A DNA stretch of 64,000 bases from Martelella alba (GTDB lineage Bacteria > Pseudomonadota > Alphaproteobacteria > Rhizobiales > Rhizobiaceae), in the NCBI RefSeq assembly GCF_006516955.1, contig NZ_VHLG01000004.1, forward strand, positions 124,001 through 188,000, read 5' to 3'. A program made the position numbers and the translations under genes. This document shows, one piece after another, positions 17,810-28,419 of this stretch; position 1 is the stretch's first letter, and the number at the start of each line of letters is the position of its first letter. The notes under the pieces are model-generated. The model made no database searches. It was not told the DNA's origin and worked only from the letters and a program-made list of their open reading frames with translations.

Positions 17810-17835
17810 AAAATTTTACCGTTTGATAAAATTTT
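17810..17835. promoter_or_regulatory. Inverted repeat upstream of preTA, candidate operator
   Basis: A perfect 9-bp inverted repeat AAAATTTTA / TAAAATTTT separated by 8 bp (CCGTTTGA) lies 45 bp before the preT start codon. The site is AT-only inside GC-rich DNA and is placed where a repressor or activator of the pyrimidine-reduction operon could act. No adjacent regulator gene was identified to match it. Confidence 0.4.
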
Positions 17836-17879
17836 CAAACCGGGTTAGGCTTTTCCCAGAAACAAAAAAGGGGAACCCT

Positions 17880-19238
17880 ATGCAAGACACCGAACCCGCC
17901 CGCGCGGGCGGGCGTCTGACGCCTGCCGATTACGAGCGCAACTTCTCTGACCTGCATCCGCCGTTGCAAAAGCATGAGGCAGCCGTTGAGGCTGACCGCT
18001 GCTACTTCTGCTATGATGCGCCGTGCATGACAGCCTGTCCGACGGCGATCGACATTCCGCTCTTCATCCGCCAGATATCCACCGGCAATGCCAGCGGCGC
18101 GGCGAAGACGATCCTTGACCAGAACATTCTCGGCGGCATGTGCGCCCGCGTCTGTCCCACCGAAACGCTGTGCCAGGAGGCCTGCGTGCGCAATACGGCG
18201 GAGGAAAAGCCGGTCGAGATCGGCCTGCTGCAGCGCTACGCGACCGACACCGTCATGGTCGAAGGCACGCAGTTTTATGGCCGCGCTGCCGCCACCGGCA
18301 AGACGGTCGCCGTGATCGGCGCTGGCCCGGCAGGCCTTGCCTGCGCCCACAGGCTTTCCATGGCCGGTCATGATGTCGTGATCTTCGAGGCCAGGGCCAA
18401 GGCCGGCGGCCTCAACGAATATGGCCTTGCGGCCTACAAGACCACCGGTGATTTCGCCCAGCGCGAGGTTGAATATCTGCTGGAGATCGGCGGTATCGAG
18501 ATCCGCAACAATATGGCACTTGGCCGCGATTTTGCTCTTGGCGACCTTACCCGCGATTATGACGCTGTCTTCATCGGCATCGGTCTTGGCGGGGTCAACG
18601 CGCTCGGCATCCCCGGCGAGGATCTGGACGGCTGCGAAAACGCCGTCGACTTCATCGAGACGCTGCGCCAGGCCGAAGACAAGGCCTCCGTCAAGGTTGG
18701 CAGCCATGTGGTTGTCCTCGGCGGCGGCATGACCGCCATCGATGCTGCCGTGCAGGCAAAGCTTCTCGGCGCCGCCGAAGTGACGCTTTGCTATCGCCGC
18801 GGTGCAGAGGCCATGGGCGCATCCACCTTCGAGCAGGAGCTTGCCGCCTCGAAGGGCGTCTTCATCCGCCATTATCTGGCACCGAAGGAAATCCTCGGTG
18901 AGAACGGCGCCGTTTCCGGGGTGCTGTTCGACAACACCGCCAGCGAGAATGGCAAGCTAATCGTCACCGGTGAGACCGGCATTATCGCCGCAGACCATGT
19001 GCTGAAGGCCATCGGCCAGACCTTTGTCACCGACCATCTGGAAGGCCTGAAACTTGAAGGCGGCCGCATTGCCGTAGACGAGGACGGCCTAACATCGATT
19101 GCCGGCGTCTATGCCGGCGGTGACTGCATCAAGCGCGGTGAGGACCTGACTGTCACCTCCGTTGCCCAGGGCCGCGACGCGGCTATTGCCATCAACAGGA
19201 TGCTTGCCGGCGAAACGCGCGCAAGCGCCGTCGCCTGA
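17880..19238 (+). CDS. preT: Dihydropyrimidine dehydrogenase, flavin/FeS subunit PreT
   Basis: The 452-residue subunit passes electrons from NAD(P)H through FAD and iron-sulfur clusters to PreA for reduction of uracil and thymine. The N-terminal cysteines CYFCYDAPCMTACPTAIDIP and CARVCPTETLCQEACV form the glutamate-synthase-type 4Fe-4S region (about residues 40-110). Then come the FAD motif VAVIGAGPAGLACAHRLSMAGHDVVIFE and a second nucleotide site VVVLGGGMTAIDAAVQAKLLGAAEVTL. The ATG at 17880 is preceded by AAGGGGAA; a longer frame from 17823 adds an unlikely N-tail. It forms an operon with preA, 15 bp downstream. Confidence 0.92.
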   Translation: MQDTEPARAGGRLTPADYERNFSDLHPPLQKHEAAVEADRCYFCYDAPCMTACPTAIDIPLFIRQISTGNASGAAKTILDQNILGGMCARVCPTETLCQEACVRNTAEEKPVEIGLLQRYATDTVMVEGTQFYGRAAATGKTVAVIGAGPAGLACAHRLSMAGHDVVIFEARAKAGGLNEYGLAAYKTTGDFAQREVEYLLEIGGIEIRNNMALGRDFALGDLTRDYDAVFIGIGLGGVNALGIPGEDLDGCENAVDFIETLRQAEDKASVKVGSHVVVLGGGMTAIDAAVQAKLLGAAEVTLCYRRGAEAMGASTFEQELAASKGVFIRHYLAPKEILGENGAVSGVLFDNTASENGKLIVTGETGIIAADHVLKAIGQTFVTDHLEGLKLEGGRIAVDEDGLTSIAGVYAGGDCIKRGEDLTVTSVAQGRDAAIAINRMLAGETRASAVA

Positions 19239-19253
19239 AGGGAGGGTTGAAAC

Positions 19254-20567
19254 ATGGCTGATCTTTCCAATAATTTCGTCGGTATCAAATCGCCCAACCC
19301 CTTCTGGCTCGCCTCCGCACCGCCAACCGACAAGGCCTATAATGTCGAGCGCGCCTTTCGCGCCGGCTGGGGCGGTGTCGTCTGGAAGACGCTCGGCGAG
19401 GAAGGCCCGCCGGTCGTCAATGTCAACGGTCCGCGCTATGGCGCCATCTGGGGCGCCGACCGCCGTCTTCTCGGTCTCAACAATATCGAGCTGATCACCG
19501 ACCGCGATCTCTACACCAATCTGCGCGAGATCAAGGAAGTCAAGCAACGCTGGCCGGACCGGGCGATCGTCGTCTCGATCATGGTGCCCTGCGAGGAAGA
19601 GGCCTGGAAGGCGATCCTGCCGCTGGTGGAAGAAACCGGCGCCGACGGCATCGAGCTCAATTTCGGCTGTCCCCACGGCATGTCGGAACGCGGCATGGGC
19701 GCCGCCGTCGGCCAGGTGCCGGAATATGTCGAGATGGTGGTGCGCTGGTGCAAGCAATATACCCGCATGCCGGTGATCACCAAGCTGACGCCGAATATCA
19801 CCGATATCCGCCATTCCGCCCGCGCCGCTTTCCGCGGCGGCACCGACGCTGTGTCGCTGATCAACACGATCAACTCGATCGTTTCCGTTGATCTCGATGC
19901 CATGGCCCCCGTTCCGACCGTTGGCGGCAAGGGCACGCATGGCGGCTATTGCGGCCCGGCCGTCAAGCCGATTGCGCTCAACATGGTTGCCGAAATCGCC
20001 CGCGATACGGAAACGCCGAACCTGCCGATCTCCGGTATCGGCGGCATCACCACCTGGCGTGACGCAGCGGAGTTTCTGGTTCTCGGCGCCGGTAATGTTC
20101 AGGTCTGCACCGCCGCCATGACCTATGGCTTCAAGATCGTCGAGGAGATGATCACCGGGCTTTCCAACTGGATGGACACCAAGGGCTACCGCACGCTGGA
20201 CGATATTTCCGGCCGCGCGGTGAAGAATGTCACCGACTGGCAATATCTCAACCTCAACGCCATCGCCAAGGCCAATATCGATCAGGACGCCTGCATCAAA
20301 TGCGGCCGATGCCACATTGCCTGCGAGGACACCTCGCATCAGGCAATCACGGCGATCGTCGATGGCGAACGGCGCTTCGAGGTGAAGGAAGAGGACTGCG
20401 TCGGCTGCAATCTCTGCGTCAATGTCTGCCCCGTCGCCGACTGCATCACCATGGTGCCGCTCGAACCCGGCGCCATCGACAAGCGCACCGGCAAGGTCGT
20501 CTCTGCCGACTATGCCAACTGGACCACCCATCCGAACAACCCGATGGCCCCGAAGGCCGCCGAGTAA
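19254..20567 (+). CDS. preA: Dihydropyrimidine dehydrogenase, catalytic subunit PreA
   Basis: The 437-residue protein combines a dihydroorotate-dehydrogenase-like FMN barrel (about 1-320; NPFWLASAPPTDKAYNVERAF, ELNFGCPHGMSERGMGAAVGQ, TKLTPNITD) with two C-terminal 4Fe-4S ferredoxin motifs, CIKCGRCHIACED and CVGCNLCVNVCPV (about 345-400). It reduces uracil and thymine to dihydro forms, the first step of reductive pyrimidine breakdown. The usual downstream dihydropyrimidinase and beta-ureidopropionase genes are not in this window; the operon ends with a terminator at 20600-20626. Confidence 0.94.
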   Translation: MADLSNNFVGIKSPNPFWLASAPPTDKAYNVERAFRAGWGGVVWKTLGEEGPPVVNVNGPRYGAIWGADRRLLGLNNIELITDRDLYTNLREIKEVKQRWPDRAIVVSIMVPCEEEAWKAILPLVEETGADGIELNFGCPHGMSERGMGAAVGQVPEYVEMVVRWCKQYTRMPVITKLTPNITDIRHSARAAFRGGTDAVSLINTINSIVSVDLDAMAPVPTVGGKGTHGGYCGPAVKPIALNMVAEIARDTETPNLPISGIGGITTWRDAAEFLVLGAGNVQVCTAAMTYGFKIVEEMITGLSNWMDTKGYRTLDDISGRAVKNVTDWQYLNLNAIAKANIDQDACIKCGRCHIACEDTSHQAITAIVDGERRFEVKEEDCVGCNLCVNVCPVADCITMVPLEPGAIDKRTGKVVSADYANWTTHPNNPMAPKAAE

Positions 20568-23517: not shown

Positions 23518-24267
23518 TCAGCGGGCGCGCTGCGAGGGGGAAAACTCGGCAACCAGCGTGTGCATGTCACCGGGATAGGTCAGCCGGACATGGGTGATGG
23601 CGCCGGCGGCGTTCCAGGTGCGGCGGCTGATGATGAGACAGGGCGTGCCAGGCGCAAGTTCAAGTGCTGAAGCCGCCCTGCCCTGCGCACCGATCGCGCG
23701 GATGCGATGTTCGGCAGCACTCCATGGCACCTGTTCCAGAAGCCATGTACCGGGCGGCGTCAGGTCAAAATCAGCCTCCCGCGCGGCCGGCACAACATCG
23801 AGATTGATCAGCCGCTCTTCGTAACAGAAAAGTCGCTCACCGGCCTTGTGCAGGCTGGTGACGCAAAGAACCGGAACCGGCCTGTCGATAGACAGACGTG
23901 TCACATCCTCAACACTGGCAAGACGTTCCAGCTGCGCAAGCCGCCGGAAGGAATAATGCAATCCGAGAGCGGTCACCTCCCGGTCAAGCTGATGGATCTC
24001 CATCACTGCTGACAGCACTTCCGGCTGACAGACGAAGGAACCGGATTTGCGGCGACGCTCAATCAATCCCTTTTTTGACAATTCGCTGAGCGCCTTGTTC
24101 ACGGTCATGCGCGAACAGCCATAGGTATCTGTCAGCTCATGTTCGAAGGGAATCCGAAAGCCAGGCGGCCATTCGCCCGACATGATCTTGCTTTCGACAT
24201 CATGCTGGATCCGCGCATGCAGCGGCAGTTTCTCGCCCTTTTTGCCGTTCTGCCCCCCAGCAACCAT
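23518..24267 (-). CDS. hutC: Histidine-utilisation repressor HutC (GntR/UTRA family)
   Basis: The 249-residue repressor has an N-terminal GntR winged helix (DVESKIMSGEWPPGFRIPFEHELTDTYGCSRMTVNKALSELSKKGLIERRRKSGSFV in pieces, about residues 18-75) and a C-terminal UTRA ligand domain. HutC hallmarks LEQVPWSAAEHRIRAIGA and SRRTWNAAGAITHVRLTYPGDMHTL are present. HutC proteins repress histidine-degradation genes and are released by urocanate. It is the last gene behind the ABC transporter operon (23-bp gap) and is divergent by operon from hutF. Two GTNTANAC sites in that shared promoter are its likely targets. Confidence 0.93.
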   Translation of the reverse strand: MVAGGQNGKKGEKLPLHARIQHDVESKIMSGEWPPGFRIPFEHELTDTYGCSRMTVNKALSELSKKGLIERRRKSGSFVCQPEVLSAVMEIHQLDREVTALGLHYSFRRLAQLERLASVEDVTRLSIDRPVPVLCVTSLHKAGERLFCYEERLINLDVVPAAREADFDLTPPGTWLLEQVPWSAAEHRIRAIGAQGRAASALELAPGTPCLIISRRTWNAAGAITHVRLTYPGDMHTLVAEFSPSQRAR

Positions 24268-24290
24268 GTCCTGCCCCTTTCAGCCCATGA

Positions 24291-25082
24291 TCAGCCGCGC
24301 GCAACGGCAGCGATAACCTCGGCACGGATCTCTTCCGTGAGCTTCAATCTGAGCCGCGCAAATTCCGGATCCGCCTTCAGCGTATAGTCACGCGGATGGC
24401 CGAAATTGACCGGTGTAATCGAAGATATACGCCCCGGCCGGGCCGACATTGTGACAACCCGCGAGGCCATGAAGACCGCTTCCTCGATGTCGTGGGTCAC
24501 GAAGATGACCGTCTTCTTTTCCCGCTCCCAGATGCCGAGCAGAAGCTCCTGCATCAGGCCGCGGGTCTGGTTGTCAAGCGCGCCGAAAGGTTCATCAAGC
24601 AGCAGGATCTTGGGATCATTGGCAAGTGCGCGGGCAATCGCCGTGCGCTGCTGCATGCCGCCGGAAAGCTGCTTCGGCCAGTGATCGGCAAAAGCGGAAA
24701 GCCCGACACGATCGAGATAGTGATCGACGATCGTCCGGATCTCCTTGTCCTTCATGCCCTTTTCGCGCAGGCCGAAACCGACATTCTGGCGGATCGTCAG
24801 CCAGGGAAACAGCGTGTAGGACTGAAACACCATGCCGCGATCGGCGCCAGGCCCGGTGACGACATTGCCATCCAGCAAGACGCGCCCGGTGGTGGGCTTG
24901 TCAAGGCCGGCAACAATGCGCAAAAGCGTGGACTTGCCGCAGCCTGACGGACCAAGAATGGTGACGAAATCATTCTTTTCCAGCGTCAGATCGGTCGGCG
25001 CCAGCGCCTGAACCGGCTCACCGCCGCGATTGCCGGCAAAGACGCGCGACACGCCTTCGATGACGAGCTCAGACGCGCTCAT
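24291..25082 (-). CDS. NitT/TauT-type ABC transporter ATP-binding protein
   Basis: The 263-residue ATPase has Walker [14 protein letters not shown] (near 45), the Q-loop within MVFQSYTLFPWLT, signature LSGGMQQRTAIARA, Walker B ILLLDEPFGALDNQTR and the switch His in VTHDIEEAVFMASRV. LFPWLTIRQNV and EEAVFMASRVVTMSARPGRI mark the SsuB/TauB/NrtD subgroup. The ATG overlaps the permease stop (ATGA), so the two are translationally coupled. It powers uptake of the substrate bound by the protein encoded at 25922-26872. Confidence 0.92.
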   Translation of the reverse strand: MSASELVIEGVSRVFAGNRGGEPVQALAPTDLTLEKNDFVTILGPSGCGKSTLLRIVAGLDKPTTGRVLLDGNVVTGPGADRGMVFQSYTLFPWLTIRQNVGFGLREKGMKDKEIRTIVDHYLDRVGLSAFADHWPKQLSGGMQQRTAIARALANDPKILLLDEPFGALDNQTRGLMQELLLGIWEREKKTVIFVTHDIEEAVFMASRVVTMSARPGRISSITPVNFGHPRDYTLKADPEFARLRLKLTEEIRAEVIAAVARG

Positions 25083-25852
25083 GCGAACCTCCATGCAAAA
25101 AGCCTGCGATTGATCATCTTGAAGGCAACATCGGAGATGAGGCCAATCACGCCGATGACGATGATGCCGAAAATGATCTGGCCGGTTGCCATCAGCGACT
25201 GGGAATTGATGATCATATAGCCGATGCCGGAGGAGGCACCAATCAACTCGGCGACGATGACATAGGTCCAGGCCCAGCCGAGCACGAGACGCAGCGTTTC
25301 GGCGATATCAGGCGCACTTGCCGGCAACAGAACCCGCCGCACGACGCTGGAATTGGATGAGCCGAGCGTATAGGCAGCCTCCACCAGATCACGCCTGGTA
25401 TTGGCGACATAAACAGCGATCATCAAGATGATCTGAAACACCGACCCGATGAAGATGACGAGCAGCTTCTGCATTTCGCCGATACCGGCCCACAGGATGA
25501 GCAGCGGCACGAAGGCAGAGGCCGGGAGGTAGCGCGCGAAGGATACGAAAGGCTCGAGAAAGGCCTCGATCGGCTTGTAGGCGCCCATGGCAATGCCCAC
25601 CGGAACAGCGACAATGGTGGCCAGCACGAAGCCGCCGACAACACGCCAGACAGTCATGCCGATATCGCCAAGGAAATGCCGCTTGGTCAAAAGCCACCAG
25701 CCATCGCTGAGCATGGTCAGCGGATCGGCCAGGAAGGTCTTCGAAACAAAACCGCCGAATGTGGCAACGCCCCAACCGGCAAAAAAGATGACGAAGAACA
25801 GTATGCCGAGGGAAATCCTCAGCTTCGGATCGATAGGTTCGAGGGGTTTCAT
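25079..25852 (-). CDS. NitT/TauT-type ABC transporter permease
   Basis: The 257-residue inner-membrane protein has about six transmembrane segments (FFVIFFAGWGVATFGG, ATIVAVPVGIAMGAY, LLVIFIGSVFQIILMIAVYVAN, GIIVIGVIGLISDVAFKMI). The coupling-loop EAA motif reads EAAYTLGSSNSSVVRRVLLPASAPDI. It resembles SsuC/TauC. The ATG is backed by GGAAG. It lies 69 bp after the binding-protein gene and overlaps the ATPase gene. Confidence 0.92.
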   Translation of the reverse strand: MKPLEPIDPKLRISLGILFFVIFFAGWGVATFGGFVSKTFLADPLTMLSDGWWLLTKRHFLGDIGMTVWRVVGGFVLATIVAVPVGIAMGAYKPIEAFLEPFVSFARYLPASAFVPLLILWAGIGEMQKLLVIFIGSVFQIILMIAVYVANTRRDLVEAAYTLGSSNSSVVRRVLLPASAPDIAETLRLVLGWAWTYVIVAELIGASSGIGYMIINSQSLMATGQIIFGIIVIGVIGLISDVAFKMINRRLFAWRFA

Positions 25853-25921
25853 CGCACTTCCGTTTCAAACGGCAACGGACGGGGGCTGACCGCAATCAGC
25901 CCCCGCCGGTAGGATCTTGAA

Positions 25922-26872
25922 TTACTGCTGGATATAGCTCGGATCGGCCAGAACCGTCAGATCCGGAATTTCCTTGATGACACCGGCGTCGAGCAGAAGC
26001 TGGGCGGCATCTTCAGAAAACTGCTTGTAGGGACCATCGAAGAAGGCAATCGCAGCATCACGGTCCTGCCATTCCAGATATTCTGCCGAAGCCTTGAACT
26101 CGTCGGCCGTCTGGTTCACATCGGCGCCCATGATTTCATAGGATTTTTCCGGTTCTGCAGCGATCATGTCCAGCGCCTGATAATAGGACGTGGCCAGCGC
26201 CTTGGCAGCATCCGGATTGTCGGCGAGGAAAGACGGCGTGCAGCCGAATGTGTCAATCACGGCCGGGTAATCAACGGTTGTCGCCATGATCTTGCCGGCG
26301 TCGCCCGCATCACGAACCGAAGAGAGATAGGGCTCATAGGTCATGGCCGCATCATTCTGGCCGGCAAGGAAGGCCTGGGCTGCCGGGCCCGGCTCAAGGT
26401 TGACGACCTTGACGTCATCCATGGTCATGCCGTTCTGCTTCAGCATGTAAGCGAGCAGGAAGTAAGGCGAGGTGCCAGGGGCGGAGGCCGCGATGGTCTT
26501 GCCCTTCAGATCAGCAAAGGAGGAAATGTCGTTGCGCACGACAATGCCGTCAGCACCGTGGGACTGATCAAGCTGGAAGATCTGCGTGGTGGGAACACCG
26601 GCTGCAGCCCAGACGATAAAGGTCTCGGTGGTGGTGGCCGCGCACTGGATATCGCCGGAGGCCAACGCCAGATGGCGGCTTGCCTGCGGGATCTTGACCA
26701 GCGTGACATCAAGACCGTTCTTCTCGAAAATGCCGGCTTCCTTGGCCAGTGTCAGCGGTGCAAAACCGGTCCAGCCGGAAAAGCCAATCTCAACCTTGGT
26801 ATCGGCGGCATGGGCGGCGGTGGCCGCCATGAAACCGCAAAGCGAGGCTGCGGCAATCCACTTCATGTTCAT
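25922..26872 (-). CDS. NitT/TauT-type ABC transporter substrate-binding protein
   Basis: The periplasmic binding protein has 316 residues with a signal peptide (MNMKWIAAASLCGFMAATAAHA, in two parts: a positively charged start and a hydrophobic core, cleaved near residue 22). The mature start GFSGWTGFAPLTLAKEAGIFEKNGLDV is the NMT1/SsuA pattern, and SGDIQCAATTTETFIVWAAAG is the hinge region. Ligand is unknown. Control by HutC and linkage to hutF suggest a histidine-pathway compound (urocanate, formiminoglutamate, an imidazole or hydantoin); this is inference. GAGGGG lies seven bases before ATG 26872; ATG 26866 is the next option. Confidence 0.88.
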   Translation of the reverse strand: MNMKWIAAASLCGFMAATAAHAADTKVEIGFSGWTGFAPLTLAKEAGIFEKNGLDVTLVKIPQASRHLALASGDIQCAATTTETFIVWAAAGVPTTQIFQLDQSHGADGIVVRNDISSFADLKGKTIAASAPGTSPYFLLAYMLKQNGMTMDDVKVVNLEPGPAAQAFLAGQNDAAMTYEPYLSSVRDAGDAGKIMATTVDYPAVIDTFGCTPSFLADNPDAAKALATSYYQALDMIAAEPEKSYEIMGADVNQTADEFKASAEYLEWQDRDAAIAFFDGPYKQFSEDAAQLLLDAGVIKEIPDLTVLADPSYIQQ

Positions 26873-26954
26873 ATTCGAACCCCTCATTCTGTGAAATTTT
26901 ATGCAGGCGGGCATTCTGCCCCTTCCATGGGCATACTAGCCATGGCCTATATAT

Positions 26955-26968
26955 TTTGTCTAGACAAA
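26955..26968. promoter_or_regulatory. Candidate HutC operator 1
   Basis: A 14-bp perfect palindrome TTTGTCTAGACAAA contains GTCTAGAC, an exact match to GTNTANAC, the core bound by the HutC branch of GntR regulators. It lies 83 bp upstream of the binding-protein gene and about 105 bp upstream of hutF, in the divergent promoter. Confidence 0.68.
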
Positions 26969-27037
26969 TTACAGGAAGTTTGTGCGCTGCGATGCCATCA
27001 CATCATGTGTTGTCATTTGCGGTACAAAGTCATTTTA

Positions 27038-27047
27038 TGTATATACA
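27038..27047. promoter_or_regulatory. Candidate HutC operator 2
   Basis: The perfect palindrome TGTATATACA contains GTATATAC, again exactly GTNTANAC. It ends 25 bp before the hutF start codon, where bound repressor would block initiation of transcription of hutF. The centre-to-centre distance to operator 1 is 81 bp, close to eight helical turns. Confidence 0.68.
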
Positions 27048-27072
27048 AAATAAGACAATGGGGATGAGGCCG

Positions 27073-28419
27073 ATGACACGGATCTTTGCCGAGACGATAT
27101 TGACGCGAAACGGCCTGGTGAGCAATGCCCGGCTGACGGTTCGCGATGGGCAGATCGACACGATCGCAACAGGCGTTGCGGCCGAGCCGGTCGACGAGCG
27201 GCACAGCCTGATCATTCCCGCCATTCCCAACCTTCACAGCCACGCCTTCCAGCGCGCCATGGCCGGGATGACCGAGCGGCGCGGCATGACGGCTGACAGC
27301 TTCTGGAGCTGGCGCGAGCTGATGTATCGCTTCGCGTGGAAAATCCGGCCGGACGAGGTCGAAGCCATCGCGGCACAGCTTTACATGGAAATGCTGGAAG
27401 CCGGATTCGGCCGGGTCGGAGAGTTCCATTATCTCCACAACGACGAGGATGGCACCCATTACGACAACATTGCCGAGATGGCCGAGCGCATCGCAGCGGC
27501 AGCCAGCACGACCGGCATCGGATTGACACTTCTGCCGGTCTTCTACGCCCAATCCGGCTTTGGCGGCCTCGCCCCGCATGAGGGGCAGCGCCGTTTCATT
27601 CATGACACGGAAAGTTTTGCGCGGCTGATGGCGGCGGCCCGGCAGGCGCTTTCCCCGCTTCCCACATCACGACTGGGTGTCGCACCGCACTCTCTGCGCG
27701 CCGTCACGCTTGAGGATCTGGGCAGGGTCGCCGCGCTTGCCGGCGATGGACCGATCCACATCCATATCGCCGAACAGCTGAAGGAGGTCGAAGACTGTAT
27801 CGCCTGGAGCGGTACGCGCCCGGTCTCGCTGCTGTTTGACCATGCCGACGTCGACGCGCGCTGGTGCCTGATCCACGCCACCCATATGAGCGCGGAAGAA
27901 ACCGCCCGCTTTGCCCGCTCGGGCGCGGTTGCCGGTCTCTGCCCGGTCACAGAGGCCAATCTGGGCGACGGCACCTTCCCGGCCGCCGCCTTTCTGGCGC
28001 AAGGCGGGCGGCTTGGCGTCGGCTCTGATTCCAATGTGCTGATCGGCCTTGCCGATGAATTGCGCCAGCTTGAATATTCAGCACGCCTTGCCGAACATGC
28101 CCGCAATGTGATCGCCCCGGCGGGTGGCTCCACCGGGCGCCACCTCATCGATCTCGCTGTCGATGGTGGCGCGCGCGCCCTTGGTGCTGCGGCGGCTATC
28201 ACCGAAGGCAGCGCTGCCGATTTCGTTTCCCTCGATACTTCTGAAGCCCCGTGGCTTGCGGGTGACGCAGCCCTTGACGGCTTCATCTTTGCCAATGCGG
28301 TGAAGGTTGACGGCGTCTGGATCGCAGGCGAGAAACTGGTGGAAAATGGCCGCCATCGCGACAGGGGTGCCATCACCGCACGCTTCCGCCGGGCCATGAC
28401 GGCACTGACGGCCGATTAG
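27073..28419 (+). CDS. hutF: Formimidoylglutamate deiminase
   Basis: The 448-residue amidohydrolase converts N-formimino-L-glutamate to N-formyl-L-glutamate and ammonia in the five-step histidine pathway. Metal ligands are visible in PNLHSHAFQRAMAG, APHSLRAV, HIHIAEQLKEVEDC, LIHATHM and GSDSNVLI; the VGEFHYLHND strand is characteristic of HutF. The frame is open far upstream (to 26956), but ATG 27073 is chosen: it follows GATGAGG and gives the family's usual N-terminus, MTRIFAETILTRNG. No hutH, hutU, hutI or hutG is in the window. Confidence 0.93.
   Translation: MTRIFAETILTRNGLVSNARLTVRDGQIDTIATGVAAEPVDERHSLIIPAIPNLHSHAFQRAMAGMTERRGMTADSFWSWRELMYRFAWKIRPDEVEAIAAQLYMEMLEAGFGRVGEFHYLHNDEDGTHYDNIAEMAERIAAAASTTGIGLTLLPVFYAQSGFGGLAPHEGQRRFIHDTESFARLMAAARQALSPLPTSRLGVAPHSLRAVTLEDLGRVAALAGDGPIHIHIAEQLKEVEDCIAWSGTRPVSLLFDHADVDARWCLIHATHMSAEETARFARSGAVAGLCPVTEANLGDGTFPAAAFLAQGGRLGVGSDSNVLIGLADELRQLEYSARLAEHARNVIAPAGGSTGRHLIDLAVDGGARALGAAAAITEGSAADFVSLDTSEAPWLAGDAALDGFIFANAVKVDGVWIAGEKLVENGRHRDRGAITARFRRAMTALTAD

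Follow-up and report, generated by a model that had tools for sequence, protein, structure and literature searches.

In this study, we have explored a stretch of 64,000 nucleotides of Martelella alba (contig NZ_VHLG01000004.1, positions 124,001 to 188,000; hereafter the window), in which the genes of an ATP-binding cassette (ABC) importer of the NitT/TauT type share an operon with hutC, the gene of a histidine-utilisation (hut) repressor, next to the pathway gene hutF. Judged from the arrangement of these genes, from candidate operators and from the recurrence of both in other genomes, this is quite likely a HutC-regulated importer of the histidine-utilisation pathway, and the ligand that we predict for it is most likely L-histidine. 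On the minus strand, one operon comprises the genes of the binding protein, the permease, the ATPase and HutC, and hutF runs divergently (Table 1), an arrangement that a first-pass annotation of the window had described and that coordinates, strands and profile matches bear out. The NMT1-type binding protein, the BPD_transp_1 permease and the ABC ATPase, encoded by neighbouring genes on the same strand, all exceed their Pfam gathering scores. HutC matches the model TIGR02018 over its full length (positions 1-226 of 226, 273.8 bits, cut-off 220) and, among 31 matches in the genome, is the only one over the HutC cut-off.

Table 1. Genes and putative operator boxes of the hut-linked importer locus (positions in the window)
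Feature	Position	Strand	Description
hutC	23518-24267	-	Repressor of histidine utilisation, GntR/UTRA family; gene at the end of the operon; PF00392 and PF07702
ABC importer ATPase, NitT/TauT type	24291-25094	-	PF00005
ABC importer permease	25079-25852	-	PF00528 (BPD_transp_1)
Periplasmic substrate-binding protein	25922-26914 (open frame)	-	PF09084 (NMT1), 92.6 bits, gathering score 20.5
HutC-type box TTTGTCTAGACAAA	26955-26968		Perfect palindrome of 14 bp; the likely start of the binding protein is about 80 bp downstream
HutC-type box TGTATATACA	27038-27047		25 bp before the likely hutF start
hutF, formimidoylglutamate deiminase	27073-28419	+	NF006683, 697 bits (cut-off 654); TIGR02022, 602.1 bits (cut-off 413.05)

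The gap between the binding-protein gene and hutF holds two HutC-type boxes, TTTGTCTAGACAAA and TGTATATACA, 81 bp apart from centre to centre, exactly where the first-pass annotation had placed two palindromes. We propose the TTTGTCTAGACAAA box as the operator of the transporter-hutC operon, and the TGTATATACA box corresponds by its position to the hutF/hutI box of other Martelella. The underlying motif, TGTNTANACA, is presumably the one bound by HutC. In this 10-bp form it occurs at 8 places in the 4.99-Mb genome, two of them in the transporter/hutF gap and one just upstream of hutI on another contig, and the TGTATATACA sequence itself recurs upstream of the genome's hutI. The backward-read control has 25 places; when one mismatch is allowed, TTGTNTANACAA occurs at 30 places and its own control at 41. 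Such totals prove nothing because the backward controls have more places; it is rather the position and recurrence of the boxes that carry the evidence. A TGTNTANACA box stands at the binding protein in 54 of 80 named loci (summed expectation 0.08) and in 7 of 40 relatives from the order of M. alba (summed expectation 0.007), so that the conservation in relatives, which the first-pass annotation had put forward as a check on its operators, is indeed seen. For these counts the box was sought between 250 bp upstream of the binding-protein match and 30 bp within it, and the expectations were derived from first-order Markov versions of those stretches. The named loci are the best 80 of 562 candidates, lean to close kin and reach up to 10 kb to each side, some contigs being short; they overlap with the 40 relatives (L052 and L154, for example), and the two sets of counts are not to be summed.

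Not every search for boxes was informative. An 8-bp core was dropped as evidence beyond chance, as its count in the window (5 against 2.23 expected) was reached by 8 of 100 shuffles. None of the other five TGTNTANACA places in the genome resembled the promoter of a histidine gene when their context was judged by eye, with no family search of the neighbours. One of these five, a TGTATACACA box (L014 6139-6148; C53:80138), precedes by about 0.1 kb a frame that by eye belongs to the GntR family and is of the FadR type, and it is possibly a site of this adjoining regulator itself. The first box of the gap is overlapped by a minus-strand match of the sigma-70 type, but 3 such matches stand against 0.7 expected and are no evidence of function.

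The window itself holds only part of the pathway. The first-pass annotation had noticed that hutH, hutU and hutI were missing, and tblastn agrees, finding none of these genes, nor hutG, in the window. The genome has them elsewhere, as one run hutI-hutH-hutG-hutU on another contig (C53, L012), and all four exceed their family cut-offs. A contiguous locus is seen in L085-L087, of which two are Martelella genomes and the third is filed as Marinicella sp. W31, with the order bacterioferritin-like gene, Nudix-like gene, hutF, box, hutI-hutH-hutG-hutU, box, binding protein, permease, ATPase, hutC (the first two names were given by eye, the Nudix match belonging to a frame that overlaps with the gene in question). 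The window shares the flank of these loci beside hutF and lacks their middle hutIHGU block. L101 and L149 likewise show the contiguous order, both with an additional hutD, and L149 lacks the second box. Most simply, the separation of hutF-transporter-hutC from hutIHGU arose by rearrangement of a contiguous locus that is still seen in Martelella, the direction from contiguous to split being read from few genomes. Such a split explains both the genes missing from the window and the presence of two boxes in one gap, which would be the hutF/hutI box and the transporter box. The same genome also encodes a second HutH-like protein (L010, C33:267237-268817), which scores 531.2 bits against a cut-off of 539.15.

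These observations bear directly on what the first-pass annotation had made of the missing genes, namely, in one variant, that HutF is the local gate of an importer for formiminoglutamate, imidazole propionate or a hydantoin. It is true that hutF is the only catabolic hut gene beside the importer in the window, but the hutIHGU block is present elsewhere in the genome and, in Martelella, stands between hutF and the importer, while a Comamonadaceae (L167) and a Rhodococcus (L166) stretch show hutH and no hutF; we consider this variant very improbable. An importer serving an intermediate only was rejected, given the hutIHGU block elsewhere in the same genome and the occurrence of both hutH and hutU in 41 of 41 sampled genomes of the order that have the transporter. 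What stands of the first-pass annotation is an uptake module that belongs to the histidine pathway and is controlled by HutC, which the boxes and the hut association bear out; its service to an intermediate finds no support, as the boxed hutIHGU block lies elsewhere. More generally, a single window can suggest a partial pathway where the pathway is merely split across the genome.

The association of transporter and pathway extends well beyond one strain, as a survey of neighbourhoods within the order, beyond it and on plasmids shows, which settles a doubt that the first-pass annotation had raised. Of the 297 genomes that represent the order, 41, the genome of the window among them, have an orthologue of the binding protein, with orthologues at 50-70% identity separated by a gap from the next group at 31-40%. 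All 41 carry hutU, compared with 155 of the 297 overall (the match in G246 is partial, and the lists were matched by hand). The hypergeometric probability of this co-occurrence is 1.4e-13 by genomes and 6e-5 by genera, of which 14 have the transporter and 65 of 123 have hutU; kinship is corrected for only by this count of genera. A hutH over its cut-off is likewise found in 41 of 41. Around the transporter itself, hut genes were called by tblastn with identity thresholds for each gene (30% identity sufficed for a HutC from outside the order). By this measure 12 of 40 fetched relatives of the order have at least two hut genes near the transporter, and a further 5 have a box only. Nine of the 12 show the order hutF-hutC-binding protein-permease-ATPase with a box before hutF; since the box stands in front of hutF, a separate box at the binding protein would not be expected in these nine. 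Among the 80 named loci, a hut gene is nearby in 50 (at least two in 41) and a box only in 15.

The linkage is seen outside the order as well. Of 398 genomes of the phylum, 29 have a match to the binding protein and 9 of these lie outside the order. The fetched stretch contains both hutH and hutU in each of the nine, and in eight a HutC-like gene (31-37% identity); seven share the order binding protein-permease-ATPase-(hutC in six)-box-hutH-hutU. A plasmid stretch from Comamonadaceae (L167) reads binding protein-permease-ATPase-hutC-hutH-hutU. On a linear plasmid of Rhodococcus (L166), hutH is followed by binding protein, permease and ATPase, and no other hut gene was detected in the stretch. 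Compared with proteins of the M. alba genome, this transporter is 65-76% identical and this HutH 55%, and an annotated TonB-dependent receptor gene is nearby, which together suggests that these plasmid genes were transferred from Gram-negative bacteria. The Tistrella plasmid pTM2 departs from the pattern, as it has the transporter and no hut gene in the stretch. Altogether 71 plasmid records have a match, at least 57 of them from Klebsiella, Enterobacter, Escherichia or Leclercia, and the three enterobacterial plasmids that we examined (L165, L198, L199; Klebsiella and E. coli) carry a complete hut set together with the transporter. These three are mobilizable IncR plasmids, in which the hut set is followed by hisC, an alpha-hydroxy acid oxidase gene and an iron-containing alcohol dehydrogenase gene; IS5-type transposases lie on both sides in L165 and were seen on one side in L198 and L199.

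Based on these data, a mechanism can be put forward in which HutC, the product of the last gene of the transporter operon, would occupy both boxes of the gap and the box upstream of hutIHGU. Urocanate is the inducer of HutC in other systems. As urocanate, the product of HutH, builds up, HutC would be released from the boxes, and the importer, HutC, HutF and the catabolic enzymes would rise together. To judge by the family names of the enzymes, imported histidine would then pass through HutH, HutU, HutI, HutF and HutG to glutamate and formate. A variant of the same module, in which urocanate rather than histidine is the main ligand, would make hutC in the operon part of an economical feed-forward loop, as HutC responds to this compound, and would fit the presence of hutU in all 41 transporter genomes. 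However, hutH is also present in all 41, and a urocanate importer would not need it; moreover, in the Rhodococcus stretch it is hutH that adjoins the importer, with no hutU detected, and in seven of the nine copies outside the order hutH lies downstream of the importer, mostly after hutC. We regard urocanate as an unlikely main ligand. The hutH of all 41 genomes and the lone hutH of the Rhodococcus stretch make histidine a likelier ligand than urocanate, and a much likelier one than formiminoglutamate.

Several observations weigh against a histidine importer of the hut pathway. Association of genes cannot cleanly part histidine from urocanate, and hutH was counted in the 41 transporter genomes only. 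Neither hut gene nor box is near the transporter in 23 of the 40 relatives of the order (one of which has only 38 bp upstream) and in 15 of the 80 named loci, though the genomes of the 23 carry hutU and hutH elsewhere; a further relative of the order, L197, has neither hut gene nor box in its fetched stretch. A FastTree of 131 rows, with a single long row as outgroup and weak support for 43 of its 128 inner branches, shows the copies that lack both scattered among the linked ones and not as one separate family, but they also form two sizeable clades. The Mesorhizobium-like copies (L059, L066, L157) are among those with neither. In L066 the genes beside the transporter encode a regulator that resembles GbdR (368 bits against a cut-off of 480) and an enzyme with a GcvT domain (141.8 bits against a cut-off of 300), and similar frames were seen by eye near L157 (regulator) and L059 (enzyme). 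Because these copies have no hut gene or box and lie near a GbdR-like regulator and a GcvT-domain oxidoreductase, one may ask whether the clade is a general importer of imidazole amino acids whose use has shifted in some lineages, such as the Mesorhizobium-like one, to a methylated histidine such as hercynine; we hold this to be doubtful. Finally, the best fold match of the binding protein, E. coli TauA, gives no hint of histidine.

This fold match leads to the last alternative, a taurine or sulfonate importer that stands beside hut genes by chance. As modelled (mean pLDDT 87.4), the binding protein has the NitT/TauT fold and matches TauA (6ssy) with a TM-score of 0.78 by query and 0.85 by target. 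In the plasmid records listed, binding proteins that belong to this clade bear either a generic name or a label as aliphatic sulfonates-binding, two of the records calling the orthologue a putative aliphatic sulfonates-binding protein. However, identity to TauA is 22%, and it is 19-22% to the solved SsuA and TauA structures in the fold comparison, far from the high similarity to a characterised taurine or sulfonate protein that the first-pass annotation had named as fatal to its proposal. The match tells the kind of protein and not the ligand. The profiles point the same way: the binding protein scores 132.7 bits with SsuA_fam (cut-off 163.5) and 62.6 with TauA (cut-off 304.25), and stays under the cut-off of all 8 NCBIfam models that it matches. 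The permease is under all 10 of its models, SaoP, TauC and SsuC included (TauC 123.6 of 342; NtrB 87.4 of 209), and the best models of the ATPase, TauB-like (249.7 bits), SaoA (242.0) and NtrCD (238.1, cut-off 291.8), are all under their cut-offs too. With the hut association seen within and beyond the order as well as on plasmids, a sulfonate importer placed there by chance is hardly credible. In 21 aligned orthologues, some of them without hut neighbours, the binding protein keeps the invariant blocks SGWTGF, QCAATT, Q-D-S-GAD, PGT-P-F, YEP and DT-GCTP, which is consistent with one ligand throughout.

Some details of the locus complete the description. The likely start of the binding protein is the ATG at 26872, which is preceded by GAGGGG and followed by what by eye is a signal peptide. 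Taken from its first ATG, the frame of the ATPase shares 16 bp with the permease gene. For hutF, the listed TTG start at 26956 is probably too early, since the family match begins at residue 39-40 of that frame, and the ATG at 27073 is the likely start. Near the hut operon, the stretch 17823-20567 of the window holds a gene for PreA (738 bits) and, before it, a frame that by eye is PreT-like.

How does this importer compare with known systems? TauABC, SsuABC and NrtABCD are the familiar members of the NitT/TauT family, and with them it has in common the NMT1 fold, a single permease gene and a TauB/NtrCD-like ATPase; it differs from them in its low identity to the solved binding proteins, in its scores under the NCBIfam cut-offs and in its hut context. 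In our literature search, which covers subscription journals poorly, we recognised no experimental report on a hut importer of this type. Fitness-based annotation reportedly assigned NitT/TauT-like genes of an Acidovorax strain to histidine transport; the available part of PMC9007349 does not give this assignment, and our argument makes no use of it. The available part of PMC8751395 holds nothing on this transporter.

Closer to our importer are the systems described together with HutC. The available text of Leyn et al. (2016; PMC5343134) names HutXYZ, HisJMPQ and HisT as HutC-linked importers, a permease and two distinct ABC systems; set side by side by description only, they resemble our importer in their role of histidine uptake under HutC. 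The same text predicts HisXYZ as an ABC system for histidine uptake under HutC in Comamonadaceae, Ralstonia and Rhizobiales. Like HisXYZ, the clade described here comes with hut genes or with boxes of the HutC type, both in many Hyphomicrobiales and outside that order, where a plasmid of Comamonadaceae and further genomes show it. Because regulation and taxa agree, our importer is probably this HisXYZ, a comparison made by description, with no Ralstonia identified by name among our copies. A HisXYZ of Gram-positive bacteria (PMC9413887) bears the same name. A HutC-regulated histidine importer had thus already been predicted in print, and we see in this clade a real and recurrent system of a known kind and mostly ordinary, its ligand very probably histidine. 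Our survey offers L-histidine as a testable substrate for its members in Hyphomicrobiales, in other proteobacteria and on enterobacterial plasmids.

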